DNA of 35,624 nucleotides from Candidatus Eremiobacteraceae bacterium (lineage in GTDB: Bacteria; Vulcanimicrobiota; Vulcanimicrobiia; Eremiobacterales; Eremiobacteraceae), in the NCBI GenBank assembly GCA_035314825.1, contig DATFYX010000014.1:1-35624 (forward strand), written 5' to 3'. The position numbers and the translations under genes are program-made. The notes under the pieces were generated by a model. It had not been told where the DNA came from. It was given only the letters and a program-made list of their open reading frames with translations, and ran no database searches. Below, one piece after another: positions 5,100 through 21,404 of this stretch (position 1 is its first letter; each line of letters begins with the position of its first letter).

Positions 5100-6302
5100 C
5101 TAGCCGACGAGGTCGAAAAGGTCCTCGAAGTCGCCCATTGCGGCCGTTCCGGCCCGGTTGGCCATCACCGCCTCGTAGACGGCGATCACCCGCCCGGCGG
5201 TGGCTTTGATGTCGAACGCGGCGGCCGCCGTGCGCGCGTGCGCGGAGGCTGCGCCGTAGCGAGCCCGATCGCCGAGCAGCGCGCCGACCGCCTGCGCCAT
5301 GCCTGGGCCGTCCTCGACGAGCTCGCCCGCCTGGTTGGGGCCGAACACATCGCGCGTCTGCGGGCTAGCCGCAGCGACCACCGGCAGGCCGGCAGCGAAC
5401 GCCTCGGCCAAGACCAGTCCTTGTGTTTCCGAGGTCGAGGGGAAGACGAACAGGTCGGCAGCCGCGTAGATCGCGGGCAGCTCGTCGCGGGGAACTGCGC
5501 CCGCAAAGATCGCGGCGTCTCCCAGGCCGCTGGCCGCCGCCTGGGCCCTCAGATCATCTGCCGAAGGCCCTGCACCCACCAGGAGCAGCCGGGCGTCGGG
5601 CAAGTCCGAACGCAGCAGCCGCAGCGCTTCCAAAGCCAAAGAGACGCTCTTTTCTTGGGCCAGCCGCGAGACCAGCAGCAGCAGCGGCGCGCCGTTGGGT
5701 ATGTCGAACCGCGCCCGGGCCGCCTGGCCCTGCTCCATGCCCGCATTGCGGAAACGGTCGAGTTCAATGCCCGTGGGTACGACGCAGATCGGGGCCACCA
5801 CGCCGACGTCCCGCAGCTTGGACGCGACCGCCTGCGTCGGCGCGATCACCGCGTCGGCCGCGTTAGAATAGGCCCGGGTCAGCTCGCGCGTCAATTGGGC
5901 GGTGATGCGCTGTCCGAGCGGCGAGTAATGCGCGTAGCGCTCGAGCATGGTGTGATACGTGAACACCAGCGGCACGCGAAAACGATAGCGCGCGTAATAT
6001 TGCGCCATCCATCCGGTGACGAACAACGAGTGCGCGTGGATGATGTCGCATTGGCTCAAGAAGCGCGCTTTGTTTCTGCGCGCGACAAGCGGCACCGTCA
6101 AACGGTACTCGGTCCGCGCGGGCAGCGGAAGCGACGGCATGAAGAACACTCGACCGAGCGCTTCCACGCCGTTCGGGATGCGCGGCGCGAATGTGTACGC
6201 CTCGTGTCCGCGCACGCGCAACTCCTCAGTGAGACTTTCGACGGACGCAACTACGCCATTGATGATCGGACGATATACTTCCGTAAAAACGCCGATCTTC
6301 AT
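5100..6302 (-). CDS. GT4-family glycosyltransferase (diacylglycerol/mannosyl-transferase type)
   Basis: Retaining GT-B glycosyltransferase of family 4, 400 aa. The start MKIGVFTEVYRPIINGVV is typical of GT4 enzymes that glycosylate lipids, such as 1,2-diacylglycerol 3-glucosyltransferases and the mannosyltransferases of actinobacteria; acceptor and sugar cannot be fixed from sequence. The acceptor-binding N-domain holds HAHSLFVTGWMA. The C-domain holds the nucleotide-sugar part: LVSRLAQEKSV, then LVGAGPSADDLRA, then FVFPSTSETQGLVLAEAFAAGLPVV with the E-x7-E pattern. I chose ATG 6302 because the family begins there; the open frame continues to 6416 but its first 38 residues look spurious. The gene diverges from the promoter at 6408-6437. 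Confidence 0.87.
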   Translation of the reverse strand: MKIGVFTEVYRPIINGVVASVESLTEELRVRGHEAYTFAPRIPNGVEALGRVFFMPSLPLPARTEYRLTVPLVARRNKARFLSQCDIIHAHSLFVTGWMAQYYARYRFRVPLVFTYHTMLERYAHYSPLGQRITAQLTRELTRAYSNAADAVIAPTQAVASKLRDVGVVAPICVVPTGIELDRFRNAGMEQGQAARARFDIPNGAPLLLLVSRLAQEKSVSLALEALRLLRSDLPDARLLLVGAGPSADDLRAQAAASGLGDAAIFAGAVPRDELPAIYAAADLFVFPSTSETQGLVLAEAFAAGLPVVAAASPQTRDVFGPNQAGELVEDGPGMAQAVGALLGDRARYGAASAHARTAAAAFDIKATAGRVIAVYEAVMANRAGTAAMGDFEDLFDLVG

Positions 6303-6407
6303 AGCGGGACCGTCTTCTCGTCTTTCGGAACCACGATGCGCTGCGCGTTCCTTCGGCCGAACTGTGAATCCTTCAGCGGTACAATAGGTCCGCGTAGCGG
6401 GAATCCC

Positions 6408-6437
6408 TTGTTCCATCGGATTTTGCCGTGATATAAT
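6408..6437 (+). promoter_or_regulatory. Extended -10 promoter for the G5/3D protein-rsmA unit
   Basis: TTGTTC at 6408-6413, an 18-nt spacer, and a perfect extended -10, TGATATAAT, at 6429-6437. Predicted +1 is near 6444, giving a leader of about 140 nt before the TTG start at 6585. The -35 is weak, but TGn plus TATAAT can make up for that. Confidence 0.7.
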
Positions 6438-6467
6438 CCTCGCGTTGTCCGGTTATCCGTCACGTTC

Positions 6468-6528
6468 TCGCCGCTTCGCGGCGATCTCGCCTTCACGATA
6501 CCGAGATGCAAACGCATCGGTTGAAGGC
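6468..6528 (+). ncRNA. Structured 5' leader (two hairpins) before the G5/3D gene
   Basis: Hairpin 1 (6468-6484) is a 7-bp stem TCGCCGC / GCGGCGA with a TTC loop. Hairpin 2 (6489-6528) has an outer 7-bp stem GCCTTCA / TGAAGGC, an internal loop (CGATA against T), an inner stem CCG-ATGC / GCAT-CGG with an AG bulge, and an AAAC loop. Together they fill much of the leader. In Firmicutes and Actinobacteria, leaders of related wall-hydrolase genes often carry the ydaO c-di-AMP riboswitch, but I do not see that motif here. Whether this is a regulatory RNA or plain leader structure is open. Confidence 0.4.
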
Positions 6529-6584
6529 CCTACCGACATCACTTCGCACGCCTCTCGAGGCTCACCAGCAATGGGGATTGTTTA

Positions 6585-7436
6585 TTGACGCGCCATCCTG
6601 AACTTCGCATCACCGCCATCGCAACGCTCATCGTCATATGCGCCACGACCACTTCCGCAGCCGCGGTCGCGCGCCACATGCTCAACGATGCACACCGCAC
6701 GCCAACCGTTCTCACGTCATACACCGTTTCCACCACGTTATCCGACCAGCCGCTCGACGATGCTCGCGCCGCCGATAGTCCGTCCGTCGTCGCCAGCGCG
6801 GACGAGTTCTATAACCAGACCAAATTCGACGACTTGCACGGCACGACGGCGGTCATGCGCCCGAACGTCCGTATCGTAACCGAATACAGCACGCACCACC
6901 GGCTGTTGACGCTCGACCCCGACGTGCGCCTGACCCCGAACCTCAAGCCTGGTCAGCGCCAAGTCATCCGCACCGGGAGCCCGGCGCTCGAGGACCTGAC
7001 CGAGCGTGTCGTCATGTGGGACGACGTGGCCGTCCATCGTCAGATCATCCACGCCCGGGTGCTGCGCCCTGGCACGCGCGGGATCGTGCTGCAAGGCGCG
7101 CCGCTCACTTGGGATCAACTGGCCGCGACCACCCGGTTCCGCAAACTCGTCCGCGTGTACGAGATGGAAGCGACCGCGTACACCGCATGGACCGCGACGT
7201 CCAACCCCACCGGCCGCACGGCGACCGGCATGCAGGCCACCTATGGCGTGGTCGCCGTCGACCCGAGCGTCATCCGGCTGGGTTCGCACGTCTTCGTGCC
7301 AGGCTATGGCCTGGCGATCGCCGCCGACACCGGCGGAGCGATCGTCGGCAATCGCATCGACCTGTGCATGGACTCGGTGAGCGCTGCTCTGACCTTCGGC
7401 CGGCGCCCCGTCAAGGTCTACGTCCTAGCGGAATAG
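6585..7436 (+). CDS. G5- and 3D-domain cell-wall protein (YabE/RpfB-like)
   Basis: Secreted or membrane-anchored protein (283 aa) likely to act on peptidoglycan. Residues about 9-27 are a signal peptide or anchor. Residues about 96-172 match a G5 domain (LKPGQRQVIRTGSPALEDLTERV), which binds wall polymer. Residues about 192-282 are the 3D domain, named for three Asp: D226 (VAVDPSVI), D248 (AADTG) and D260 (RIDL). This double-psi barrel is shared with MltA-type lytic transglycosylases and stationary-phase Rpf/Sps proteins. The TTG start at 6585 follows GGGGA by 8 nt; a five-codon frame (6571-6588) ends overlapping this start, so coupling is possible. The next gene is rsmA, as in the tatD-yabE/rpfB-ksgA order of Gram-positives, which supports the assignment. 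No transglycosylase domain is fused to it. Confidence 0.88.
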   Translation: MTRHPELRITAIATLIVICATTTSAAAVARHMLNDAHRTPTVLTSYTVSTTLSDQPLDDARAADSPSVVASADEFYNQTKFDDLHGTTAVMRPNVRIVTEYSTHHRLLTLDPDVRLTPNLKPGQRQVIRTGSPALEDLTERVVMWDDVAVHRQIIHARVLRPGTRGIVLQGAPLTWDQLAATTRFRKLVRVYEMEATAYTAWTATSNPTGRTATGMQATYGVVAVDPSVIRLGSHVFVPGYGLAIAADTGGAIVGNRIDLCMDSVSAALTFGRRPVKVYVLAE

Positions 7437-7454
7437 GCGCACAGCCTGTAGTAG

Positions 7455-7472
7455 CGCGGTCTGTTGACCGCG
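7455..7472 (+). repeat. Hairpin enclosing the rsmA start codon
   Basis: A perfect 7-bp inverted repeat, CGCGGTC-TGTT-GACCGCG, in the 27-nt gap between the G5/3D gene and rsmA. The TTG at 7464-7466 spans loop and 3' arm, so the folded mRNA would hide the start codon. It may be a REP-like palindrome or a translational control element. Confidence 0.5.
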
Positions 7473-8333
7473 GATGAATATAGTTCTCCCAAACGCGTTC
7501 TCGAAGCGCGCGGCCTGCGGCCGCGCAAGCGCTTCGGGCAGAACTTCCTCGTCGACCAGCGCTTCGCGCAGCGTATCGCTGCCGCACTGCCTTCAGGCGC
7601 CTACGTTCTCGAGATCGGCGGCGGCACCGGCACGCTGACCGCAGCCTTGGCCGCCCAGGCGCGCGAGCTCGACGTGCTCGAGATCGATCGCGGGCTGGTC
7701 GAGGTGCTGCGCGAGCGCTTCGCCGGCGAGGCCGGTCGGATCAACGTCCTCGGCGCAGACGCGCTCGACGTCGACATCGGCGCGCTGCTCGCACGCCACG
7801 AGCAGCCCCGCGCGGTGTGCGGCAATCTCCCTTATTCGATCACGACGCCGCTGCTGGAACGCATCATCGCTGCCGCACCTGCATGGGATTGCGCGGTGCT
7901 CATGGTGCAACGCGAGTACGCCAAGCGCATGGGCGCGCGGCCGGGCACGCCCGATTACGGCAGTCTCACGGTGTTCGTCAGCCACTACTGTGAGGTCGAG
8001 CATCTTTTCGACGCAGGCGCTTCCGGTTTTTATCCGGCGCCGGCCATCGCGTCGTCCGTCCTGCGCCTGCGGCCCAAAGCTGACGCCGCCGAGCGCGGCG
8101 CCGCCGACGAGCTTTTCTTATGGACCGTGCGCGCGGCGTTCGCGCAGCGGCGCAAGACCCTGGCCAACAGCATCGCGAGCCAGACCGACACGCTCGCGCG
8201 CGCGGACGTCGAGCGCGCCATCGCCGGCGCGGGCTTGGAACCCGGGATCCGCGGCGAGCGCTTGACGCACGACGACTTCGTGCGTCTCGCCGATGCGCTG
8301 CACGCACAGGGCTTTCGCGTCCCCGCGCGGTAA
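7464..8333 (+). CDS. rsmA: 16S rRNA (adenine1518-N6/adenine1519-N6)-dimethyltransferase
   Basis: RsmA/KsgA transfers four methyl groups from S-adenosylmethionine to two adjacent adenines in the 3' helix of 16S rRNA, a late step in 30S maturation; its loss gives kasugamycin resistance. 289 aa, of normal length. The N-terminal RFGQNFL block is at residues 23-29, the SAM-binding loop IGGGTGTLT at 51-59, acidic ELDVLEID at 68-75, and the catalytic NLPY motif at 121-124, followed by a C-terminal helical domain. The start is TTG 7464: no ATG or GTG is available before the conserved block, and the frame then aligns well (SPKRVLEARGLRPRKRFGQNF). No clear ribosome binding site is visible and the start lies in a hairpin. 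It follows the G5/3D gene by 27 nt and was probably cotranscribed with it. Confidence 0.95.
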   Translation: MTADEYSSPKRVLEARGLRPRKRFGQNFLVDQRFAQRIAAALPSGAYVLEIGGGTGTLTAALAAQARELDVLEIDRGLVEVLRERFAGEAGRINVLGADALDVDIGALLARHEQPRAVCGNLPYSITTPLLERIIAAAPAWDCAVLMVQREYAKRMGARPGTPDYGSLTVFVSHYCEVEHLFDAGASGFYPAPAIASSVLRLRPKADAAERGAADELFLWTVRAAFAQRRKTLANSIASQTDTLARADVERAIAGAGLEPGIRGERLTHDDFVRLADALHAQGFRVPAR

Positions 8334-8343
8334 GCCACAGCCG

Positions 8344-9171
8344 ATGGACATCGCGAGCCCGCAACCGGTCGCAACGCTTTCCGCCGGCCCCGAGCCGGCT
8401 TTTCATAAGCGCTGGAGCGGTTGGACGGTGGTGTGGATCTTCGTCGCGCTCGCGTTCCTATATATCGGCGTCCAGATCGCCGCGACGATCGTGCTGTTGT
8501 ACGTGAAGTTCCCCGACGTCATGGCCGCCGCGGCGCATGGCGACCGGGGCCCGCTCATGGGACTCGCGTCGCCGTCGGGCCTGGCACGACTGCTGACCCC
8601 GACGGGCTTCCTCATGATCCAACTGCCGACGACGGTCGTGATGGTCGGCGCTACGTTGGTACTCGCGCGCGGCGCGCTCGGCGCGACGCTCGCGGATCTC
8701 GGTTTCGGCAAACCCATCACGGGAAACACCGTGGCCTGGGGGCTCGGCGCCGGCCTCGTGCTGTTCGTCATCTCGTTGGGCCTGGAGCTGGCTCAGGACG
8801 CGCTCTTCGGACCGCACCCGCAGCAGATCGCGCTGATCCTCGCCCAACATCACGGCATCGCCTCGTTGATCCTGGACCTGATCTCTGCCGCGCTGCTCGC
8901 GCCGCTCTGGGAAGAGACGTTTTTTCGAGGCGTCTTCTTCACCGCGCTCGTGCAGCGCATGCCGTTCTGGCTTGCCGCGACGTTGAGCGGCCTGGCGTTC
9001 GGCTTGGCGCACGGCGATCTCTGGAATCTGGTGCCTCTGGCCGCCCTTGGGTTCGGCTTGGCGTTCGTCTACTATCGCACCGGGAACATCTGGGCGAACA
9101 TCATGACGCACGCGACGATCAACGGGTTGGATCTGATCATCCAGGCGCTCTTCCCGCAGCTCCCCACATGA
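8344..9171 (+). CDS. CPBP-family intramembrane metalloprotease
   Basis: Membrane protein of the CPBP (CaaX protease and bacteriocin-processing, Abi/Rce1-like) family, 275 aa. Motif 1 is EETFFR (residues 190-195), motif 2 has H223 (FGLAHGD), and motif 3 is HATIN (256-260); these supply the catalytic Glu, His and Asn residues of the glutamate-type intramembrane proteases. At least six hydrophobic segments are visible (about 28-53, 87-109, 127-150, 172-187, 206-223, 232-245). The ATG at 8344, 10 nt after rsmA, is preferred; an in-frame ATG at 8293 would overlap rsmA by 41 nt. Its substrate is unknown. It converges on the exchanger gene with 4 nt between the stops. Confidence 0.9.
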   Translation: MDIASPQPVATLSAGPEPAFHKRWSGWTVVWIFVALAFLYIGVQIAATIVLLYVKFPDVMAAAAHGDRGPLMGLASPSGLARLLTPTGFLMIQLPTTVVMVGATLVLARGALGATLADLGFGKPITGNTVAWGLGAGLVLFVISLGLELAQDALFGPHPQQIALILAQHHGIASLILDLISAALLAPLWEETFFRGVFFTALVQRMPFWLAATLSGLAFGLAHGDLWNLVPLAALGFGLAFVYYRTGNIWANIMTHATINGLDLIIQALFPQLPT

Positions 9172-9175
9172 CGCG

Positions 9176-10162
9176 CTAGCGCGCGCTGACCTCCAGCGCG
9201 ATATAACCGCAATAGAACAGCCCGCACAACGCTAGCGGCAGCGCCTCTACTTTTCGGCGGATCATGAGCCACGACAGCACGAACAGCGCCGCGGCCAGCG
9301 TTGCGGCGGCGGCGCGATAGCTGCTCGCGTCCAAGTGCCATGGCGACGCGAGCAACGCGATCGCGCTGGCGATCGATGCCTGGAACATCATCGCGCCCAG
9401 CACGTTTCCAAGCGCCAGGTCGTCGAGGTCGCGCTGCATCCAGACCAGCGCGTTGACCGCTTCGGGCAGCTCCGTCGCGATCGGGCTGAGCACCAGCGAT
9501 ATGAGGAGCGGCGAGACGTGGAGCACCGCGGACAGCGAGGTGAGCGAGCCGACGAACCAACGCGCGGTGAACGCCGTGACGATGGTGGCGATGAGCAGCT
9601 GCACGATCACGAGGCCGAGCCGCGGCCGCTCCATCCATGGTGCGATGCGCAGGCGCGGCGGCGCCTCGTCGCTTTCCACCGCGCGCAGCCGCAGATGATA
9701 CACGAGATAGGCGATGTAGGCGAGCACTGCGATGGCGGCGACGGTGGCGTGCACGGCGAAGGCCGGGGTAAAGGACGCGCCGATCACCAGTGCAAAGGTG
9801 AACGAGAACAGCGCCAATCCCACGATCGCGGGCTTGACGGGCGTGTGGGCCATGTCGTGTCTGCGGCCGAAGACCACCGCGCCGATGCCGATGAGGCTCA
9901 AAACGATGGTGGCGAGCAGCAACGGCGCGCCGACGACCGCACCGACGCCGACCGCGACGCTCGCCGGGTCGGCCAACATCACGAGCGCGATGAAGGCGAC
10001 CATCGTTTCCGGCAGCGATGAGCCGATGGCGGCGACGACGGCGCCGACCGCGCTGCGCGTCAGCCCGAGCAGCGCACCGACCCATTCCACCGCGTTCGCA
10101 AAGGCGTCGCTCGCGAGGACGAGAAGCACCAACCCACAGAGCACTTGGAGCGCGATCGGCAC
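9176..10162 (-). CDS. CaCA-superfamily cation exchanger (sodium/calcium exchanger family)
   Basis: Membrane antiporter of the Ca2+/cation antiporter superfamily, related to YrbG and MJ0091 NCX. 328 aa with about ten hydrophobic helices arranged as two inverted halves. Both alpha-repeats are visible: the first has AAIGSSLPE (residues 44-52) and GVGAVVGAP (72-80); the second has SPIATELPEA (226-235) and GNVLGAMMFQ (252-261). The Glu in each LPE is the expected ion ligand. A polar linker (about 158-182, ESDEAPPR) separates the halves. Ion preference (Ca2+, Na+, Mg2+ or H+) cannot be told. Start is GTG 10162 without a convincing ribosome binding site. It diverges from the phosphoesterase gene at 10227 across a 64-nt gap. 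Confidence 0.88.
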   Translation of the reverse strand: MPIALQVLCGLVLLVLASDAFANAVEWVGALLGLTRSAVGAVVAAIGSSLPETMVAFIALVMLADPASVAVGVGAVVGAPLLLATIVLSLIGIGAVVFGRRHDMAHTPVKPAIVGLALFSFTFALVIGASFTPAFAVHATVAAIAVLAYIAYLVYHLRLRAVESDEAPPRLRIAPWMERPRLGLVIVQLLIATIVTAFTARWFVGSLTSLSAVLHVSPLLISLVLSPIATELPEAVNALVWMQRDLDDLALGNVLGAMMFQASIASAIALLASPWHLDASSYRAAAATLAAALFVLSWLMIRRKVEALPLALCGLFYCGYIALEVSAR

Positions 10163-10226: not shown

Positions 10227-11342
10227 TTGCCCTACCGCATCATCCACATCGCCGACGTCCATCTCGATATGGCGTTTGCCGGTCTCGATCCATCCGCGGG
10301 CGACGCGCGGCGCAGGCAGTTAGAGTCGGCGTTCGAACGCGCACTCGCGCTGGTGCGCGAGCACAAAGCGGACGCGCTGTGCATCGCCGGCGATCTCTAC
10401 GAGGACGGCCGGGCGACGCCCGATCGCGGCGCCTACCTGACGCGCGTCCTGGGCGAACTCGCGCCGGCGCGCGTGTTCATCAGCCCGGGCAATCACGATC
10501 CCAACGATTCCGCATCGCTGTATCGCCAGATGGCGATCCCCGCAAACGTCACCGTTTTCGCATCGCGCCGCTTCGCGCCCGTGCAGCTCGCGCCCGGACT
10601 GACGTTGTGGGGCGCGGCCCATGAGTTCGACCTCGATCGCGCTCCCATGGTACAGGGCTTCGTGTGCGAAGGGCCGGGCACGCATCTGTTGCTCTTCCAT
10701 GGATCCGATCGCGAGCGCTTGCCTCCCGGCAAGGAATGCATCGCGCCATTCGTCGACGCCGACATCGTGGGCGCACGAGCGGTGCACGCGATGGTCGGCC
10801 ACTTCCACGGCATGCTCCAAGGGCCGCACTACACCTATCCCGGCTCGCCCGAGCCGCATAGCGCCGCTCAGGACGGTCGCCACACCGCAGCGCTGGTGAC
10901 GATCGAGAACGGCAGGGTGGATCAACGCTTCATCGAGATCAATCGCACGGGCTATGTGAGCGAAGATCTCGATATCTCGGAGCTCGGCGATCGCGCCGCC
11001 GTGGCGGCCGCCGTCGGCAAACTCGTGCAGCGGCGGGTGGACCGTCCGGGCGAGGTCTTCTGCCGCGTGCGGCTGGTGGGCAACGCGCCCCCGACGCTCG
11101 ACTTCGACGCCGTCGATCTGCAGCGCGAACTGCAAGCGGACTACCCGGGCGTGACGGTGGAGGACGCGTCGGCAGCCGTCGATCCGGACGACGTCGCGAA
11201 CGAGGGCTACACCGTGCGCGCCGAGTTCGTCAAGGAGATGAAGCGCCGCATCGAGGCCGCGCCGGCCGCCGAGCGTGCCGTGCTCGAACGCGCGTTGCGC
11301 TACGGCCTGCTCGCCTTCGCCGGCAAGAGGTTGAGCCCGTGA
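10227..11342 (+). CDS. Mre11/SbcD-type metallophosphoesterase (YhaO-like)
   Basis: Calcineurin-type nuclease subunit, the partner of the SMC-like ATPase encoded next. All metal-binding motifs are present: D10-x-H12 (IADVH), G55-D56 (AGDLYED), GNHD at 88-91, H158 (LLFHGS), and GHFH at 191-194. The C-terminal ~130 residues would be the capping and ATPase-binding region. At 371 aa it resembles Bacillus YhaO in size, and the partner has the YhaN layout. Family members nick or resect DNA ends together with their ATPase. Start is TTG 10227: an in-frame stop lies just upstream and no other start precedes the DxH motif; GAAAGGAAAG lies about 14 nt upstream. Its stop overlaps the next gene's start by 4 nt (GTGA), so the two are translationally coupled. 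Confidence 0.88.
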   Translation: MPYRIIHIADVHLDMAFAGLDPSAGDARRRQLESAFERALALVREHKADALCIAGDLYEDGRATPDRGAYLTRVLGELAPARVFISPGNHDPNDSASLYRQMAIPANVTVFASRRFAPVQLAPGLTLWGAAHEFDLDRAPMVQGFVCEGPGTHLLLFHGSDRERLPPGKECIAPFVDADIVGARAVHAMVGHFHGMLQGPHYTYPGSPEPHSAAQDGRHTAALVTIENGRVDQRFIEINRTGYVSEDLDISELGDRAAVAAAVGKLVQRRVDRPGEVFCRVRLVGNAPPTLDFDAVDLQRELQADYPGVTVEDASAAVDPDDVANEGYTVRAEFVKEMKRRIEAAPAAERAVLERALRYGLLAFAGKRLSP

Positions 11343-13897
11343 TCCTGGCAGAGGTGCACGTCGACGGTTTCGGGTGTCTGGTCAAGCAGCGCTTCCGCTT
11401 CGGCGACGGCCTGACCATCATCGCGGGTCCGAACGAGTCGGGCAAGACGACGCTCACCGAATGCATCGTGCGCTTGCTGTTCGGCTATCCGGAGCATCAG
11501 TACACCGCCGCGCTCGACGAGCGCAAGCCGTGGCACGCACCCGTCTACGCCGCGTCGCTCGTGTACCGGCTCGACGATGGCCGGCTGCTCGAGACGCGCC
11601 GGGACTTCAGCCAGTCCAATGTGCCGACCGAGACGTTCGAGAAAGATGTGATGCGCCGCGTGCCGGAGCTGAGCGGCACGCGCAAGACCTCGCCCGGCTT
11701 CGAGCTGCTCCACCTCTCCATGGAGGCGTTCGAGGCGGCGGCCGTGATGCGCGCGGGTGAGTTCGCTGCCAAGCAGGACGACAAGGCGTACAAGACGCTC
11801 GCCGAGCGGATCGCCGAGCTCGTCGGGGCAGCGGGGGAAGCCGGTGCGCAAGACGCCACCGACCGGCTCGACGCGTTCCTCAAAGAACTCGGCAGCGAGC
11901 GCGCCTCGAAACGGCTCGTGACGCTCGCGCATGCGAAAACCGAATCGGCGCGCGCGGCGCTCGAAGCGTATCGGCGCGATGCGGACCGTTTGCGCGAAAA
12001 CGTCGAACGCCGCACGCAGATCCTCGCGCAGCAAGCGGAGTTGTCCGCCCAAGCCCAACAGCTCGAAACGCGAATGCACGGCGCACGGTTGCGCGCCGTG
12101 CGCGCGCGCATCGCCGCGGCGCAAGCGGCCTCCACACAGCTCGAGCAAGCATCGAGCGGCCGCGCGCCGCTTGACCCGTCTCCGGAGGTGCTTGCGCGCG
12201 CCACGAGCATCGACTCCGCCATCGACGCCTGGACAGCGGCGCGCACCGAGGAGAGCGACGCGTCGAGCAGTTCGAATACTAAAGAAGAGCAGCGCACCGA
12301 GGTGCTGCGCCAGCTCGCCGCGTGCGACGCGAAGATCAAAGACGCCGAGGCCGTCGTCAAGGCCCGTAACGAAGCGATCGAACGCCTCAAACCAGAGGCC
12401 GCGCGCACGACCATCTCCGACGATGTGCTGGAGCGGCTCGAGGGGTTGGCCGAATTGGCGGACATCCAAGAGCACGCGGCGCGCACCGCCGAGACCCAGA
12501 GCGCCATCAACCGCCAGCGGCCGCGCGCCGGCGCGTGGCCCGGCGTCTTCGTGTTCGCCATCGCGTTCATCGCCCTGGTCGTCGGCGCGTTCGTCCACTT
12601 GCCGGCGGTCATCCTCAGCGCCGTCGCCGGCATCTTGGTCGCCGGCGCTATGTTCGCGTACTTCTTCGTCGCCGAGCGCGGGCGCAATGCGGCCAACGCC
12701 GAGATCGAGGAGCGCGCGCGCCAGGCCCGCAGCGTCGCCGATAGCGCCTCGTCGAACCTGGCCAAGGAGTGCGGCGCCCTCGGGCTGTCGGACATCCGGG
12801 CGGTGCGGCGCGCGGTGAAGGTGCAGGGCGAGATTGGGCGCTTTTCCGACGCGCTCGAAGCCGCCCAACAGACCGCTGCGCAGAATCGCGAGCTGCGCGA
12901 CTCGCTCGAAGCGCGCTTCAACGACTTCGACCGGCTCGACCGCCAATTGGTCGACGCGCGGCGGCGAACTGAAGAGCGAGCCTCCGAGCTGCAGCGCCTG
13001 CTCGACGACGCGCGCGTGCCGGGCGGCGATCTCGAATCCCGCATCGCCACGTTCCGCGAACGGCGCCAAGGGGTCGAGGGAGCGCTGCTGGCGGAAAAAT
13101 CTATCAGCGACGCGCGGGCCGCACTGGCCGGCGCGCTCGGCACCGACACGCTCCAAGATCTGCGCGCGCAAGAGGCTCGCCTTGCCGAGCTCGCGGGCCC
13201 CGACACGGTTGCGGATGGATCGGACGCTGCCACGCTCGAGCGCGAGCTCAAAGAGCTCGATGCGACCAAGCCGCGTCTGGACGGCGAGCTTGGCAAGATC
13301 GAGGGCGAACTCGCGCGCTTTGACGAGCAGTATCGCGGCGGCGGAGCGCCCCTCGAGGAGCAACTGGCGCAGTGCGAGGCCGAAGAGACGCGGTTGGTCC
13401 AAGCACGCGAGGCGGCGGCGCTGGCCCGCGAGGTGATCGACACGACCAAAGACCGCGTCCACAAGAACTTCGCGCCCCACCTCAACGCGCTCGCCGGTCC
13501 GGCGCTGGCCGAGATCACGCACGGGCGCTACGCCGACGTCATGATCGACCCCCGCGACTTCTCGCTGCGCGTGCGCCCGGCAGACGGTTCGGCGACGATG
13601 CCGAGCGATGTGCTCTCCAGCGGCACGCAGGAGCAGCTGCACCTTTCGCTGCGCGCCGCCACCGCGCAGGCGCTCGGCGCGCAAGGATCCGGCGAACGCG
13701 TGCCGTTGCTGCTCGACGACGCGCTCGCCCACGCGGACGAGCGGCGGCTCGGCGCTGCGGTCCGTCATCTCGCGGCCATCGCGCGCCGCCAGCAGGTGTT
13801 GCTGTTCACGCAACGCGATGCGGTGCTCGAGGCGGCCCGCCGCCTCGATGGCGTGACGATCGTGCACTTGAGCGGGCCGGCGGCCGCTCCCAAGTAG
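11339..13897 (+). CDS. Membrane-anchored Rad50/SMC-like ATPase (YhaN-like)
   Basis: ATPase partner of the preceding Mre11-like protein, 852 aa. Walker A is GPNESGKTT at residues 30-38. Two long coiled coils, rich in Glu, Arg, Ala and Gln, run about 165-395 and 450-690. Between them, at about 400-446, are two hydrophobic segments (VFVFAIAFIALVVGAFV and ILSAVAGILVAGAMFAYFF) where Rad50/SbcC has its zinc hook; no CxxC is present. This central membrane hairpin is the mark of YhaN-type proteins and would anchor the arm tips in the inner membrane. The ABC signature LSSGTQEQL is at about 759-767 and Walker B LLLDDALAHAD at about 790-800. GTG start in a GTGA overlap; its TAG shares 1 nt with the next GTG. 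Known relatives act in DNA repair; the exact role here is inferred. Confidence 0.88.
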   Translation: MILAEVHVDGFGCLVKQRFRFGDGLTIIAGPNESGKTTLTECIVRLLFGYPEHQYTAALDERKPWHAPVYAASLVYRLDDGRLLETRRDFSQSNVPTETFEKDVMRRVPELSGTRKTSPGFELLHLSMEAFEAAAVMRAGEFAAKQDDKAYKTLAERIAELVGAAGEAGAQDATDRLDAFLKELGSERASKRLVTLAHAKTESARAALEAYRRDADRLRENVERRTQILAQQAELSAQAQQLETRMHGARLRAVRARIAAAQAASTQLEQASSGRAPLDPSPEVLARATSIDSAIDAWTAARTEESDASSSSNTKEEQRTEVLRQLAACDAKIKDAEAVVKARNEAIERLKPEAARTTISDDVLERLEGLAELADIQEHAARTAETQSAINRQRPRAGAWPGVFVFAIAFIALVVGAFVHLPAVILSAVAGILVAGAMFAYFFVAERGRNAANAEIEERARQARSVADSASSNLAKECGALGLSDIRAVRRAVKVQGEIGRFSDALEAAQQTAAQNRELRDSLEARFNDFDRLDRQLVDARRRTEERASELQRLLDDARVPGGDLESRIATFRERRQGVEGALLAEKSISDARAALAGALGTDTLQDLRAQEARLAELAGPDTVADGSDAATLERELKELDATKPRLDGELGKIEGELARFDEQYRGGGAPLEEQLAQCEAEETRLVQAREAAALAREVIDTTKDRVHKNFAPHLNALAGPALAEITHGRYADVMIDPRDFSLRVRPADGSATMPSDVLSSGTQEQLHLSLRAATAQALGAQGSGERVPLLLDDALAHADERRLGAAVRHLAAIARRQQVLLFTQRDAVLEAARRLDGVTIVHLSGPAAAPK

Positions 13898-14958
13898 TGC
13901 CTGGGCGGCTGCGCGTCGGCGTCGACGCGGCGAACCTGCCGCGCGATCACCGCGGCATGGGCCGTTACGTGCGCAGCGTCTTGCACGAATTCGCGACGCG
14001 GCTTTCCGACCGGGTCCAGCTCACGCTGCTGGTGCCGGATCCGCTGCCGGGGCTTGTGGCGCGCCGCTATCTGGAAGATCTTCCGGGCGACGCGACCGTC
14101 GCACGGCGTAGTGCTGCTGGCAAACGTCGCCTGGACGTGCTCTGGTATCCGTGGAACGGCATGACATGGCGCGCGCCGGCGCCTTCGGTCGTCACCGTGC
14201 ACGATGTCTGGCCGTTCGTAGCGCCGTCCGGCGACGCGCGCGTGCGCGCGCGCGAGCAGGCGCACTATCTCGCGGCGGCAGAGGGTGCCGCGCTCATCAT
14301 CGCGATCTCCGAATTCACCAGACGCGAGATCATCCGGCTGCTGGGTGTGAGCGCCGAACGCATCCAAGTGATCCACCAAGGCGTCGCCCCGCCGCTTGCG
14401 GTGAGCGCGCCGGCACGAATCGAGGGCAGCGCGCGCTACGTGTTGTTCGTCGGTGAAGTCGAACCGCGCAAGGACGTGGGCACCCTGATCGAAGCGATGC
14501 GCCGGTTGCCCGAGGATCTGCGCTCCGACACCGCGCTTGTCATCGTGGGGCGCGCGCGCGGCCTGTCGGCGAGCGATGCCGAGGGCGTGCGCATCCGGCT
14601 CGCGGGCGAGATCGCGGACGACGCGCAGCTCGGGGCCTTATACGCCGGCGCTGCCGCGTTCGCGTTCCCGTCCCGATACGAAGGCTTCGGTCTGCCGCTG
14701 CTCGAGGCGATGAGCTATGGAGCGCCGGTGGTCGCCTCCGATGCGGCCAGCATTCCGGAAGTCGGCGGCGAGGCGGCTTTGTATTTCCCATGCGGCGATG
14801 CGCAGGCATTGGCGGATGCGCTGACGCGCGTGTTGCGCGATCCGGCTTTCGCGCGCACGATGTCAGCGGCAGGTGTCGCCCGTGCTGCCAGTTTCGGGGA
14901 AGAGGTGCGCGCCCGCAAGACGCTCGCGGCCCTCGAATCGGTGGCGCGCACGCCGTGA
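13897..14958 (+). CDS. GT4-family glycosyltransferase, first of a tandem pair
   Basis: GT-B glycosyltransferase, 353 aa. The N-domain starts LRVGVDAANLPRDHRGMGRY, with the GIGRY-type loop of GT4 mannosyl/rhamnosyltransferases of O-antigen and exopolysaccharide clusters. It continues with LWYPWNGMTW and TVHDVWPF. The C-domain has LFVGEVEPRKDVGTLIEA, then FAFPSRYEGFGLPLLEAMSYG (the nucleotide-sugar E-x7-E site) and VVASDAASIPEV. The start is GTG 13897, whose G is the last base of the upstream stop (TAGTG), suggesting termination-reinitiation; the frame stays open further upstream but overlaps the ATPase gene and lacks family similarity. The next gene is a close paralogue. Acceptor unknown. Confidence 0.88.
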   Translation: MPGRLRVGVDAANLPRDHRGMGRYVRSVLHEFATRLSDRVQLTLLVPDPLPGLVARRYLEDLPGDATVARRSAAGKRRLDVLWYPWNGMTWRAPAPSVVTVHDVWPFVAPSGDARVRAREQAHYLAAAEGAALIIAISEFTRREIIRLLGVSAERIQVIHQGVAPPLAVSAPARIEGSARYVLFVGEVEPRKDVGTLIEAMRRLPEDLRSDTALVIVGRARGLSASDAEGVRIRLAGEIADDAQLGALYAGAAAFAFPSRYEGFGLPLLEAMSYGAPVVASDAASIPEVGGEAALYFPCGDAQALADALTRVLRDPAFARTMSAAGVARAASFGEEVRARKTLAALESVARTP

Positions 14959-16013
14959 GCACGCCGCTGCGTCTCGGCGTCGACGCGCGCAAGCTGCTGG
15001 ACGACCGGCGCGGCATCGGCCGCTACACTCGGGCGCTGCTGAGATCGTGGACGACGCGCTGGCGCGAGCGCGTGGCGCTGACGCTCTTGGTGCCCGATCT
15101 CTTGCCGTCGCTCGTGGCGTCGCGGCTCGCGACCGAGCTTGGCGTACGGCTGCCCGTCGCGCGGACCGGCGCTCGGGCGTACGACGTTACGTGGTATCCC
15201 TGGAACGGGATGACCTGGGTAGCGCGCGGGGTCAAGGTCGCCACCGTCCACGACTGCTGGCCGTTCGCTTCCCCGGCCGACGATGAGTCGATCCGGCGCA
15301 ACGAACAGCGGCCTTTCTTGACGACCGCCGCCGACGCGGACACGATCATCGCCGACTCGGCGTTCGGCAGGTCAGAGATAGTCCGGCACCTCGCCTACGA
15401 TCCGGCGCGCATCGAGGTGATTCCGCTCGGCATCGACCCAGGGGAACGGCACAGCGTGATCGACGCGCGCGACCCGTACGTCTTGTTCGTCGGGCAGGCC
15501 GAGAAACGCAAAGATCTCGGCACCCTGCTGAGCGCGATGGGAGCGCTGCCCGAAAGCCTGCGCACGCGCTACCGTCTTATCGTGGCAGGCAAAGACCAGC
15601 CGGGAAGCTTCGGCCCGCCGCCGCCAGGAGCACGCGTCGAGTTCGCGGGTGAGGTCAGCGATCGCCGGCTCGGAGAGCTATACGCCGGCGCGTGCGCGTT
15701 CGTCTTTCCGTCGCGCTACGAGGGCTTCGGGCTGCCGATCCTCGAGGCGATGGCGTACCGGGTCCCGGTCGTCGCGTCCGACGCCGCGAGCATACCCGAA
15801 GTGGCAGGCGACGCGGCGCTCTACTTCCCTGCAGGCGACGCCGTGGCGCTCGCGGCGGCGCTGCAGCTCGTCCTCGAAGACGCCCAGCTCGCCGACCGCT
15901 TGCGCGCGGCGGGAAGAGCACGAGCAGCTGCGCTGACGTGGGACCGCTGCGCAGATGCGACCCTGAACCTATTCGAACGTGCCGCGAAGATGAAGGCGGA
16001 TACTACGCGCTAG
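14955..16013 (+). CDS. GT4-family glycosyltransferase, second of a tandem pair
   Basis: GT-B glycosyltransferase, 352 aa, paralogous to the gene before it. Matching blocks in the same order: LRLGVDARKLLDDRRGIGRY, TWYPWNGMTW, TVHDCWPF, LFVGQAEKRKDLGTLLSAM, FVFPSRYEGFGLPILEAMAY and VVASDAASIPEVAGDAALYFP. Nearly equal length and collinear motifs point to tandem duplication with later divergence, probably giving different acceptor or sugar use within one pathway. GTG 14955 overlaps the previous stop by 4 nt (GTGA), so coupling continues from the phosphoesterase at 10227 through four genes. The 3' end overlaps the convergent rhomboid gene by 11 nt. Confidence 0.88.
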   Translation: MSTPLRLGVDARKLLDDRRGIGRYTRALLRSWTTRWRERVALTLLVPDLLPSLVASRLATELGVRLPVARTGARAYDVTWYPWNGMTWVARGVKVATVHDCWPFASPADDESIRRNEQRPFLTTAADADTIIADSAFGRSEIVRHLAYDPARIEVIPLGIDPGERHSVIDARDPYVLFVGQAEKRKDLGTLLSAMGALPESLRTRYRLIVAGKDQPGSFGPPPPGARVEFAGEVSDRRLGELYAGACAFVFPSRYEGFGLPILEAMAYRVPVVASDAASIPEVAGDAALYFPAGDAVALAAALQLVLEDAQLADRLRAAGRARAAALTWDRCADATLNLFERAAKMKADTTR

Positions 16014-16596
16014 GCGGCACGTCTTGGGCCGGCGCGAGTTCGCGGCCGCGCACCGGATCGAGCGCAAACGCCGCAAGCGAACCAGCAAGCAGACCGCCGA
16101 TGTGTCCGGCCATCGAGACGCCCGGGTTGACGAAACCGTAGCCGATCGTCAGGATGATCGGGAACACGGCTGTGCGCAGCAGCGCCTCGCGGATGCGCGG
16201 CAGTTTGAACGCCAGCACGACCATCGCGCCGAACACGCCCATGATCGCTCCCGAGGCGCCTGCCGTCGCCGCGTTCGTCCCGAGCGTCGTATAGAACGCC
16301 AGGAAGCTGCCGCCGAGCAGCGCGATCATGTAGATCGCGAAGTAGCGCGCGCCGCCATAACAATATTCGACCAGCGGACCGGCGATAGCGAGCGCGAGCA
16401 TATTAGAGCCGATGTGAGCGAAGCCGTAGTGCAGAAAACCGCTCGTGATCAAGCGCCACCATTCGCCGGCCTGGACGGCCGGCGGATACAGCGCGCCCGC
16501 GGCGAGCAGCGCATGGTTTGTCAGCAGGTCGGCCACGAAGACGATGACGTTGACGATGATGATCGTCAGGGTGACCGGCGCCTTGAGCAGGCTCAC
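16003..16596 (-). CDS. Rhomboid-family intramembrane serine protease
   Basis: Intramembrane protease of the GlpG/rhomboid family, 197 aa. Six to seven hydrophobic helices. The L1/TM2 signature EWWRLITSGFLHYGFAHIGSN (residues 45-65) contains the H-x3-N that forms the oxyanion site. The catalytic Ser is S115 in GASG (113-116) and the catalytic His is H165 in AGHIGG. No extra N-terminal cytosolic domain is present. GTG 16596 is preferred because it makes a GTGA 4-nt overlap with the upstream gene; the frame is open to 16623 with no better start. It is the last gene of the long minus-strand series and overlaps the convergent glycosyltransferase by 11 nt. Substrates are unknown. Confidence 0.92.
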   Translation of the reverse strand: MSLLKAPVTLTIIIVNVIVFVADLLTNHALLAAGALYPPAVQAGEWWRLITSGFLHYGFAHIGSNMLALAIAGPLVEYCYGGARYFAIYMIALLGGSFLAFYTTLGTNAATAGASGAIMGVFGAMVVLAFKLPRIREALLRTAVFPIILTIGYGFVNPGVSMAGHIGGLLAGSLAAFALDPVRGRELAPAQDVPPSA

Positions 16597-17537
16597 TTCG
16601 CTGCCGCCTTGAGCGCGGCGCACAGCAACGGGATCATGATCTCGTGATGGCCGGTGAACATGTAGCCGCGCCCGCCGTCCGCGTGCGGGCGGGTCACGAC
16701 GTTGGTGCGCGTGCGGTAGTGGCGCACGAAATCGAAATCAGCCGTGACGAACGAGCCGCCGTAGCCGAGATTGCGCGCCAGCGACAGCGCTTTCAAGAAC
16801 ACTTCGGGCATGATCACCGCCGAGCCCAGGTTGAGATACGCGCCGCCGTCGGTCACCGCGGCGATCACGTCGGCGAATAGCCGGAAGTCGAACAGCGAGG
16901 CGGCGCCCAGCGCTGCGCCGTCGGCTCGCGGATGCATGTGGATGATGTCGGTCCCGATCGCGACGTGGACGGTGACCGGCACGTCGAGCGCGGCGCCTTG
17001 GGCGAGGATCGAGATATCGGCATGCTTGGCGTTCGCGGCTAGCAGCGCGTTGCCCAACGCGCGGCCCAGCCCGACCTTCGCGCCCTCGCCGGCGATCGCT
17101 CCCAAGATGAAATCGGCCGTCTGCGCCGCCATGCCGAACGAGCCGTCGCGCAGCGAACTGTCGACGTCTTCGGATGTCTTGCCCGCCAGCGCCAGCTCGA
17201 CGTCGTGGATGCACACCGATCCGTTGCACGCGAGCGCCGACACGTAGCCCGAGCGCGCGAGGTCGATGAGCAGCGGTGACAACCCCGTCTTGATGACGTG
17301 GCCGCCGAAGCCGACCGCGATCGCCTTGCCGTCGCGCCGCGCGCCGGCCAGATACGCGACCAGCTCGCGCAGCTCGTGTACGGCCAGCACGTCGGGCAGT
17401 CCGCGCCAGAAGTCGGCAAACGTCTCGCCAGCTTGCGGCACCGCGGCCATCATGTCGAGGCTCACCTTCGACGGCCGCGTCGAAAGCTGCGTCGCCGTGA
17501 GACGCGTGAGATCGAGGTGCGGAAATTTTCGCTTCAC
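16593..17537 (-). CDS. Conserved protein of unknown function (GGHVIKTGLSP family)
   Basis: 314 aa, soluble, no signal peptide. I recall similar unannotated proteins in varied bacteria but cannot name a tested function. Visible conserved-looking blocks: SKVSLDMMAAVP (about 23-34), GFGGHVIKTGLSPLLIDLARSG (75-96), ALACNGSVCIHDVELALAGKTSEDV (100-124), DGSFGMAAQTADF (130-142), VAIGTDIIHMHP (192-203), LNLGSAVIMPEVFLKAL (236-252) and GHHEIMIPLL near the end. The His/Asp/Glu-rich motifs and glycine loops suggest an enzyme with a Rossmann-like nucleotide site. A distant link to deoxyhypusine-synthase-like proteins crossed my mind, but the motifs do not support it. It sits between a GT4 glycosyltransferase and a rhomboid protease with 4-nt overlaps on both sides (ATGA, GTGA). 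Confidence 0.7.
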   Translation of the reverse strand: MKRKFPHLDLTRLTATQLSTRPSKVSLDMMAAVPQAGETFADFWRGLPDVLAVHELRELVAYLAGARRDGKAIAVGFGGHVIKTGLSPLLIDLARSGYVSALACNGSVCIHDVELALAGKTSEDVDSSLRDGSFGMAAQTADFILGAIAGEGAKVGLGRALGNALLAANAKHADISILAQGAALDVPVTVHVAIGTDIIHMHPRADGAALGAASLFDFRLFADVIAAVTDGGAYLNLGSAVIMPEVFLKALSLARNLGYGGSFVTADFDFVRHYRTRTNVVTRPHADGGRGYMFTGHHEIMIPLLCAALKAAAK

Positions 17538-18625
17538 GCCGCGTACTCGCTCAGATAGCGCTCGATGAGTTCGCGCAGCCGCGCCCGGAAACGCTCGGGC
17601 GAGAACTGCGCCGCGTGGCCGGCGAGCCGTGCCGTAGAGAATCTCTCGGGCACGAATGCGCGCAGCGCCGTCGCTAATGCGTCCGGCGTCGCCTCGCGGA
17701 AGAACGAACCGGTTTCGCCTTCAACGACGGTTTCGAGCGACCCTCCGGCGGCAAACGCGACGACGGGGCGCCCCGATGCGGCGGCCTCCAACGCGACGAG
17801 ACCGTAGTCTTCGACGCCCGGCACGATCACGCCGCGCGCGTGCGCGAACAGCTCGCGCCGGCGCGCGTCGTCCACGTGGCCGGCGAAGGTGACCGTCGGC
17901 CCGGCCAGCGCGCGCAAGCGCGCTTCATCCGGCCCCGTGCCGACGACGATCAGCGGCGCGCTCAACGAGTTGCACGCTTCAATGGCCAGCGCCACGCGCT
18001 TGTACGGCAGCAACCTGGCCACGACGAGGTAATAGTCATCGACCTGCGCCGACGGCGCAAAGCGCTCGACATCCACCGGACACGGCACGACGTCGCTGTC
18101 GCGGTGGTAGCAGGCGCGGATGCGCGCGGCCACGTTGCGCGAGTTGGCGATGATGCGGTACGGCCGCTGCGCGGCGCTGTAATCCCAGCGGCGCAAGCCG
18201 GGCAACGCAGCGCGTAACGCCGGCCGCGCCAGCGGCGGCACGATTTCAAAGGCGTACTCGGCCGGGTACCAGAGAAAACGCGTCGGCGTGTTGACGTACG
18301 ACACGTGAAGCGCGCCCGGCGGCACGCGCACGCCTTTGGCGAACGACGTGGTCGAGGAGATCACCAGATCGTAGCCGCGCAGATCGAGCGCCTCGAAGGC
18401 GCTCGGGTACAGCGGCAGCAGCGCGCGAAAACGGCGCGCCGCGCCCGGGATCTTCTGCAGCCAGCTGGTGCGCACGTCGAGGCCCGCAAAGGACGGCCCC
18501 ATGGCGGCGGCATCGTAGAGGGAGGTGTAGATCGGCGCCTCCGGATAGAGCGCGTGCATCTGCTCGAGCACCCGCTCAGCGCCGCCGAGCTGCGTGAGGT
18601 AGTCGTGGACGAACGCGACGCGCAC
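17534..18625 (-). CDS. GT4-family glycosyltransferase
   Basis: GT-B glycosyltransferase, 363 aa. It begins MRVAFVHDYLTQLGGAERVL, where GGAERV is the usual GT4 N-terminal glycine loop. Later blocks include YVNTPTRFLWYP, YRIIANSRNVAARIRACY, VVARLLPYKRVALAIEA (start of the nucleotide-sugar domain), VVGTGPDEARLRAL and VPGVEDYGLVALEAAASGRPVVA (E-x7-E site). Enzymes with this profile often serve surface polysaccharides. Not closely related to the tandem pair at 13897-16013. It lies 12 nt after the second M16-like gene and overlaps the next gene by 4 nt. Confidence 0.88.
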   Translation of the reverse strand: MRVAFVHDYLTQLGGAERVLEQMHALYPEAPIYTSLYDAAAMGPSFAGLDVRTSWLQKIPGAARRFRALLPLYPSAFEALDLRGYDLVISSTTSFAKGVRVPPGALHVSYVNTPTRFLWYPAEYAFEIVPPLARPALRAALPGLRRWDYSAAQRPYRIIANSRNVAARIRACYHRDSDVVPCPVDVERFAPSAQVDDYYLVVARLLPYKRVALAIEACNSLSAPLIVVGTGPDEARLRALAGPTVTFAGHVDDARRRELFAHARGVIVPGVEDYGLVALEAAASGRPVVAFAAGGSLETVVEGETGSFFREATPDALATALRAFVPERFSTARLAGHAAQFSPERFRARLRELIERYLSEYAA

Positions 18626-18637
18626 GCCCCGCGCCGC

Positions 18638-19960
18638 CTAACGGCCTGCGGTGACCGGGAGCACCACGGCGACGGTCTCGTCCGCCAAGTATTGCCGCGC
18701 TACGCGTTGGATATCTGCCGCGCTGACGGCCGAGATGCGCGCGGCCAGCGCGTTCTCGAAGCCGACGCCGTCGGGCGAGCTCGCCGAGCGGCCCAACAGC
18801 CACGCGGCGTCGGACAGCGAGGTGACCGAGAGATAATAATCTCCCAGGGCCAACTTCCTGGCGCGCGTGACGAGCTCGTCGGGCAGCGGATCGGTGCGCA
18901 GGCGCACGATGCCCTGTTCGACCTGGCGCAGCGCCGCGTCGATATCGCCGCTGCCGCCATTGAGGAAGATCAGGAATGATCCCGGCCGAGCTTCGTATTG
19001 ATAGTACGCCCCGACGTAGTCGGCCGCACCGGCCGACCCGCCGGAACCGAACGAGAGCGCATGCACGTCGCCGCCGCGGCCCAAGAGCGCTTGGATCACC
19101 AGCATGACGGGGAAGTCTTTGGAGAACTGCGAGGGCGCGTTGAACCCGATCGCCAGCCACGGCGCTTGGACGTTGCGGTGCGCGACGATCTCATGCTGGC
19201 GCTTTTCGGCGCTCACCGGCGTTGGCGGCGGCGCGGAGCGTGCGGGCAAGGAGGCGAACGCTTTGCCGGCCGCATCGATGTCTTGGGGCGAGAGCGCTCC
19301 GGTCAACGCGACGATCGTTCCGCTCCCATATTGGTAGGTCGCGGCGAACTTCTGCATGTCTGCGACGGTCAGGTGCGCTAGGCTGGTCGGCCTGCCGCCT
19401 TGCGGGAACGCGAACCCGCTGCCTTGGTAACGGACCTGACGGACCATCGCGTAGGCGACGAGCGCGGGATTGGTCTCGTCGTCCGCAGCGGCAGCGCTCA
19501 CTTCAGAGCGGGCCGCGGCGAACTGCGCGGGATCGGGCGCGGCCATCGCACGCGCGAGATCGGCGAGCAGGCGAGGCAGCGCGGACGTCTGGCATTCGAC
19601 CTGGAAGCGCGTCGCTTCCGGGTCCACCATGTAGGCGACGGCGCCGCCCGCCGCCGTCGCGGTATCGGTAAGGCTTCGTCCGCCTTCGACCGGCGTGCGC
19701 AGGATGGTCGCAGCGGTGACCGCCGCTATTCCAGCGGTCAGCGCGGTCTGCTGCATCAGGCCCGCGGGCACGAAGACCTGCGCGCCGGCGATCGGCGAGT
19801 CATTCGATACTTGCGCCGCGACGATCACGCCGTTGGACAAGACGCTGATCGAGGCCGGGGGGAAATGCGCAGAGTCAGGAGCCGGTGCTGCGCCGATGAG
19901 CGCGCCGCTGAGGAGCGCTGCGCCAAGCGCAACCGCCGCGCGGAAAGTCGCCTGGTTCAT
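18638..19960 (-). CDS. M16-family peptidase-like protein without zinc motif, second subunit
   Basis: Secreted protein with the fold of pitrilysin/insulinase (M16) proteases, 440 aa. A signal peptide covers about residues 1-24 (AALLSGALIGAAPA). The N-terminal M16 lobe starts ISVLSNGVIVAAQVSNDSPIAGAQVFVPAG. Where active enzymes have HxxEH, this one has a helix around AGIAAVTAATILRTP with no His or Glu pair. The C-terminal lobe includes APWLAIGFNAP, AADYVGAYYQYEARPGSFLIFL (the R/Y region) and a final helix ISAVSAADIQRVARQYLADE. It resembles the non-catalytic subunit of two-subunit M16 peptidases. ATG 19960 overlaps the previous stop by 4 nt, so both subunits are made together and presumably dimerise in the periplasm. 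Confidence 0.85.
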   Translation of the reverse strand: MNQATFRAAVALGAALLSGALIGAAPAPDSAHFPPASISVLSNGVIVAAQVSNDSPIAGAQVFVPAGLMQQTALTAGIAAVTAATILRTPVEGGRSLTDTATAAGGAVAYMVDPEATRFQVECQTSALPRLLADLARAMAAPDPAQFAAARSEVSAAAADDETNPALVAYAMVRQVRYQGSGFAFPQGGRPTSLAHLTVADMQKFAATYQYGSGTIVALTGALSPQDIDAAGKAFASLPARSAPPPTPVSAEKRQHEIVAHRNVQAPWLAIGFNAPSQFSKDFPVMLVIQALLGRGGDVHALSFGSGGSAGAADYVGAYYQYEARPGSFLIFLNGGSGDIDAALRQVEQGIVRLRTDPLPDELVTRARKLALGDYYLSVTSLSDAAWLLGRSASSPDGVGFENALAARISAVSAADIQRVARQYLADETVAVVLPVTAGR

Positions 19961-21357: not shown

Positions 21358-21404
21358 TGCGATATGCCTTTCAGGCGATGCGCGTCCACGCGGACGCGCG
21401 ACTT

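Follow-up and report, generated by a model that had tools for sequence, protein, structure and literature searches.

A Mre11/Rad50-type pair with a predicted hydrophobic hairpin shares an operon with GT4 glycosyltransferases in one bacterial family

The DNA analyzed here, called the window, is a 35,624-nt stretch of a genome from the family Eremiobacteraceae. It contains four adjoining co-directional genes. The first (10227..11342, plus strand) encodes a Mre11/SbcD/YhaO-like metallophosphoesterase of 371 aa with a TTG start, assigned from Pfam and an alignment. The second (11339..13897, plus strand) encodes an 852-aa ABC ATPase with a GTG start; it is Rad50/SbcC-like and of the AAA_27/YhaN type, as assigned from Pfam, an alignment, and a predicted model. 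Two genes for GT4 glycosyltransferases, recognized by Pfam and a sequence motif, follow: GT1 (13897..14958, plus strand, 353 aa) and GT2 (14955..16013, plus strand, 352 aa). The upstream border is formed by a Na/Ca exchanger-like gene (9176..10162, minus strand) that diverges from the operon, and the downstream border by a rhomboid protease gene (16003..16623, minus strand) that converges with it. In relatives, too, these two genes flank the site, whether or not the pair is present.

An earlier, sequence-only reading of this DNA described overlaps of 4, 1, and 4 nt between the four genes; the ORF coordinates agree. The GTG start of the ATPase lies inside a GTGA at the first junction, creating a 4-nt overlap; the ATPase and GT1 meet at a TAGTG with a 1-nt overlap; and GT1 and GT2 share another GTGA, again a 4-nt overlap. 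How much do such overlaps reveal? In 20 loci of the window's family, 38 of 185 co-directional neighbors called by a simple gene caller (this operon included) overlap by 1 or 4 nt, and the window itself has three more 4-nt overlaps elsewhere. Because short overlaps are common in the family, they indicate an operon and no special link, and a functional coupling read from the overlaps was dropped for this reason.

The relationship of the first two proteins to Mre11 and Rad50 is supported by several lines of evidence. In Pfam, the Mre11-like protein matches Metallophos (PF00149, 2.8e-10), and the ATPase matches AAA_23 (1.1e-12) and AAA_27 (5.3e-8). The nearest solved structures by profile are Rad50 for the ATPase (1.1e-24) and SbcD/Mre11 for the Mre11-like protein (1.7e-15). 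Each protein was aligned in 18 rows, with truncated and split copies omitted; the alignment of the Mre11-like protein (A1) omits genomes G020 and G050, both of which are present in that of the ATPase (A2). Residues H12, D56, N89-H90-D91, H158, H192, and H194 of the Mre11-like protein, which we take to be the metal-binding and catalytic motif residues of Mre11, are invariant in 18/18 aligned sequences, window included. Likewise, the 18-row alignment of the ATPase displays invariant residues around G30-K36, at S760-G762-T763-Q766, and at D793-D794; these are presumably the Walker A, signature, and Walker B motifs, respectively. The predicted model of the ATPase has a mean pLDDT of 77.9 and a pTM of 0.43, with low confidence at the hairpin described below. 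A Foldseek search with this model returned as its first match Rad50 in the Mre11-Rad50-Nbs1 complex (7zr1_C, E 1.1e-15). The TM-score of this match is only 0.40, a value to be expected with long coiled coils, and over its full length the model superposes poorly on 7zr1_C (rmsd 92). The ATPase head, its motifs, and the hydrophobic hairpin can be read directly from the protein sequence.

The pair appears to have no counterpart of its type in the same genomes. No SbcD above the NCBIfam cut-off was found in any of the 14 genomes of the window's family (3 of 81 genomes overall have one), and below that cut-off only the pair's own gene matches in the 10 pair-bearing genomes of the family. A profile search of the window's genome returned a single AAA_27 match; the AAA_27 profile also matches in B. 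subtilis, and such a match alone does not single out YhaN. In the draft genomes of the family, profile searches found no other Mre11/Rad50-type pair.

The coiled coil of Rad50-type ATPases is where the window's protein departs from the canonical form. The sequence-only reading held that a hydrophobic hairpin replaces the zinc hook, and this is borne out. The hairpin (residues 403-442; 12545..12664, plus strand) lies midway along the coiled coil and consists of two 19-residue peaks, at 403-421 (mean hydropathy 2.76) and 424-442 (2.25); the CxxC hook motif is absent from this ATPase. Canonical SbcC proteins of sister genomes served as a control: all three have CxxC and no peak above the same threshold. 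In the model, one helix covers residues 400-419 and another residues 423-480; a break separates the two, in a stretch of low confidence. Two hydrophobic peaks are present in 17 of the 18 aligned ATPases (window included), and the remaining one has a single peak.

The hairpin is not confined to close relatives. Named relatives across bacteria were drawn from the best 80 of at least 539, and among them ATPase frames 550 aa or longer were scored, a peak being called central when it lay in the third-to-two-thirds window. Of the 64 frames scored in this sample, 48 had two central peaks, nine had one, four had none, and three had two off-centre peaks. Pairs without a glycosyltransferase neighbor carry the hairpin too, and a reading of it as a mark of glycosyltransferase association was rejected on this ground. 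In other words, the hairpin is a general property of the hairpin-type pair, with or without glycosyltransferases, and most pairs have it. Hairpin-type pairs (L105-L184, the best 80 of at least 539) occur across many bacterial groups, e.g., Actinomycetes, Chloroflexi, Acidobacteria, and Clostridium. No common third gene was found beside the pair in these best 80 loci: the pair genes themselves occur in 79 and 75, and the next cluster, an ABC-type ATPase as judged by eye, in 17. In another locus (L251, from G119), the frame at 5513-8875 was considered as a natural fusion of both proteins; it was rejected since the frame crosses undetermined bases (X residues) and the GTGA junction is present.

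GT1 and GT2 both match the Pfam domain Glycos_transf_1 (1.4e-29 and 2.4e-30, respectively) and are 53% identical to each other. GT1 has the motif EGFGLPLLE at residue 262 and a top 19-residue hydropathy of 1.25; GT2 has EGFGLPILE at residue 256 and a top value of 1.62. The Pfam glycosyltransferase domains and this E-x7-E motif liken both proteins to GT4 glycosyltransferases, although none of the 25 NCBIfam models listed for each reaches its cut-off. The window contains two further GT4 genes (5100-6302 and 17534-18625). A second GT4 paralogue, 45-52% identical to GT2, was observed elsewhere in the family at four loci: L094 (G000:C10:6551-7603), L091, L092, and L093. The last three lie close to genes whose products are very long, about 1280 aa.

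How well is the gene order kept in the family? The Mre11-like gene is present in 10 of the 14 family genomes sampled, which include the window's own. The site lies between the Na/Ca exchanger and rhomboid genes, with both borders visible in eight of the 10 pair-bearers; only the rhomboid border is visible in G002 and only the exchanger border in G012. Wherever the sequence continues past the ATPase, a GT4 gene directly follows it (9/9 evaluable pair-bearers: G000, G001, G002, G004, G005, G006, G008, G011, and G013). The spacing between the two genes is about -4 to +10 nt in all nine, assuming the likeliest start codons; in G005 and G006, CTG was the sole candidate start found. This arrangement is common to five genera, in which the identity of the ATPase falls to as low as 34%. 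Thus, the pair and the glycosyltransferase form a real operon of the window's family, and the proposal of a YhaO/YhaN-like pair in one operon with GT4 genes is supported. The four-gene order fared less evenly: the pair followed by a glycosyltransferase is kept in all nine, but the full layout with two tandem GT4 genes is found in only three (G000, G001, and G005), and G002, from the window's own genus, has one. An ATPase-glycosyltransferase operon kept so long can mean selection for co-expression.

Some details of the site vary. G004 and G005 have one extra frame ahead of the rhomboid gene. Two Mre11-like genes, those of G005 and G012, and the glycosyltransferase gene of G009 escaped the gene caller and were recovered by tblastn. 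Beside the rhomboid gene, the window encodes a 314-aa protein (16593-17537) that is 68-88% identical within the family; it has no Pfam match at 1e-5 and no match at the junction in eight sister-family loci.

The four family genomes without the pair (G003, G007, G009, and G010) all retain a GT4. The whole site is visible in G007, G009, and G010, where a GT4 stands without the pair; in G010 it is one gene over, beyond the exchanger gene. G003 has two glycosyltransferases, and its contig starts inside the first. A whole-genome search of these four genomes (94-96% complete) found no Mre11-like match. In G009, tblastn with the Mre11-like protein gave one weak hit of 78 residues (E 0.002), which falls within the exchanger gene and was attributed to chance. 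In the tree of glycosyltransferases, 16 of the 17 site enzymes, from loci with and without the pair, fall in one clade (95/95), and one of the two from G005 lies outside it on an open fork. A tree of eight flanking genes places the four pairless genomes in one clade (support 100) inside the pair-bearers; the forks above this clade are weak (69 and 56). The simplest history suggested by these trees seems to be a single loss of the pair in which the glycosyltransferase was kept. In other words, the glycosyltransferase would have outlived the pair.

An insertion could explain the same distribution in reverse: the pair would have been inserted once ahead of a pre-existing glycosyltransferase and never lost. 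This alternative, which we consider possible and rather unlikely, concerns history only and is compatible with the functional reading preferred below. It draws on the weakly supported nesting of the pairless clade and on four sister-family genomes (G022, G039, G024, and G059) that have a GT4 at the same junction and no pair there. The junction GT4 of G022 and G039 overlaps the upstream CAAX-protease gene by 4 nt; in G024, where it was missed by the gene caller and found by profile, and in G059, it lies at the corresponding junction, and the pair is on another contig. However, the best species tree favors loss, and the glycosyltransferase tree does not join the four sister-family enzymes to the family's site enzymes, leaving their orthology unsupported. 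They may be different genes and, judging from the tree, separate arrivals. The sister family also has GT4 genes of the site type, often in tandem, at other sites without the pair. The surroundings of the site are themselves conserved: genes for RsmA (a label that we assume from sequence) and a CAAX protease lie on one side, and a GT4-M16-M16-FtsH series on the other (window 7464-9171 and 17534-23342). This block is recognizable in the family and in 8/8 sister-family loci examined (L200-L207), and the genes in its gap differ. The gap is a place where genes have repeatedly come and gone.

Outside the family, the association of the pair with glycosyltransferases disappears. A phylum search for the Mre11-like gene at E 1e-30 found it in 42 of 149 genomes, 32 of them outside the window's family. 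These 32 genomes contribute 34 loci (a second Mre11 fragment of G126, on C26, was left out), and a GT4 profile found no GT4 in any of the 34. Ten loci were set aside because their sequence ended <1 kb past the ATPase or contained no ATPase, which gives 0 of 24 evaluable loci with a GT4 beside the pair. Named loci across bacteria were evaluable when at least 1 kb of sequence lay downstream, and GT4 genes were sought within 3 kb; 55 of the 57 evaluable loci among the best 80 of at least 539 relatives have none beside the pair, and the two that do are both from the window's family. In a further named locus, L119, a GT4 is present upstream, at a distance of about 7 kb. The two sets overlap, some Eremiobacterota loci being in both, and the glycosyltransferase profile, made from 35 GT4 proteins for the named scan and 37 for the phylum loci, covers the GT4 family only.

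These counts speak against the functional tie to surface glycans that the sequence-only reading had proposed. That reading had itself named, as one of the observations that would count against it, a pair usually standing apart from glycosyltransferases in relatives, and this is what was found outside the window's family. Furthermore, the pair and the GT4 are not found together and lost together, 4 of the 14 family genomes keeping the glycosyltransferase alone. Could the two nevertheless cooperate within the family? In such a scheme, the membrane-tethered ATPase would sense or hold DNA at the envelope, and co-expression would link the state of the DNA to glycan synthesis. The tightly spaced GT4 directly after the pair in 9/9 evaluable family genomes is in its favor, but the four genomes that keep a GT4 without the pair, together with the lack of a GT4 beside the pair in 24/24 phylum loci outside the family and in 55/57 named loci (best 80 of at least 539), make cooperation highly improbable. 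A literature search that covered few subscription papers found none that describes a bacterial Rad50 anchored in the membrane or links such a pair to glycosyltransferases.

Another explanation is that the pair is an anti-phage defense system with the GT4 enzymes as surface-modifying partners. When the four operon proteins were searched with PADLOC, the ATPase matched Lamassu LmuB (3.9e-15 over part of its length) and other SMC-like defense proteins, and the patchy presence of the pair (42/149 phylum genomes at E 1e-30) would fit a defense role. However, the LmuB match is most simply explained by a shared SMC/Rad50 fold, the glycosyltransferases have no PADLOC match, and the Mre11-like protein has none better than 7.5e-5. 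Moreover, in the five family genera that have the pair, its chromosomal position is the same and the genes around it are ordinary. As the PADLOC matches were at the level of the fold only, a defense system was considered and rejected as very doubtful. Very unlikely, too, is a single family-only pathway, important if true in that DNA-end processing would be tied to envelope synthesis, in which DNA ends or the state of the chromosome at the membrane control the synthesis of surface glycans and the pairless clade lost this control and kept the enzyme.

The reading that we prefer, with a probability of about 0.78, is a membrane-tethered DNA nuclease pair of the SbcE/YhaO kind that shares an operon with independent envelope GT4 glycosyltransferases, an operon broken up in one clade. 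On the strength of what is known of these protein families, the ATPase head and the metallophosphoesterase would reside in the cytosol and process DNA ends, and the apex of the coiled coil would be held in the inner membrane by the two-helix hairpin that replaces the zinc hook, its insertion and orientation being predicted from the same families. The pair most likely works on the ends of DNA at the membrane or close to it. The GT4 proteins behind it are most likely separate envelope enzymes in a glycosyltransferase-rich neighborhood, and they would share a transcript and translational coupling with the pair, and not a function. The operon would be specific to the family, and one clade would have broken it up while keeping the glycosyltransferase. 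Because each half is found without the other in relatives, the arrangement looks like a neighborhood habit of one bacterial family and not a new pathway. A well-kept operon whose parts separate in relatives is a caution against inferring function from short overlaps. Why should the coil of a Rad50 be anchored in the membrane? The hairpin form is spread over many groups, and this is the only Mre11/Rad50-type pair found in the family; the question is therefore now easy to pose.

The pair was also compared with known systems. Lamassu LmuB is an SMC/Rad50-like ATPase, as is the window's; the partner here is instead a full Mre11-like protein, and no LmuA- or LmuC-like neighbor is present among the genes identified by Pfam (Na/Ca exchanger, metallophosphoesterase, GT4, and rhomboid genes). 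Canonical SbcCD/Mre11-Rad50 shares its catalytic residues and head with the window's pair and provides its best solved relatives. However, the window's Mre11-like protein stays under the NCBIfam cut-off for sbcd (TIGR00619; 45.6 of 77.65 bits), and its ATPase has a hydrophobic hairpin where canonical SbcCD has a CxxC hook.

The closest likeness is to the SbcE (YhaN)/YhaO system, which is found in Bacillus and other Firmicutes. The B. subtilis SbcE (YhaN) was reportedly described by Krishnamurthy in 2010 with a central transmembrane domain. The literature counts SbcE among the SMC-like proteins of double-strand break repair (PMC4205851) and reports that SsbA interacts with SbcE and that E. coli is without SbcE (PMC7031210). 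As in that system, the window's metallophosphoesterase gene directly precedes a gene for a Rad50-like AAA_27 ATPase, which has a central hydrophobic segment and no zinc hook; this likeness is one of make-up. Pairs built alike occur in five Clostridium and one uncultured Clostridiales (L150, L162, L169, L178, L183, and L181), with two hydrophobic peaks in five of them and one in L169. Their Mre11-like proteins are only 23-25% identical to that of the window, and GT4 genes follow the window's pair but not theirs. By this architecture, the reading that fits the pair best is membership in the known SbcE (YhaN)/YhaO kind.
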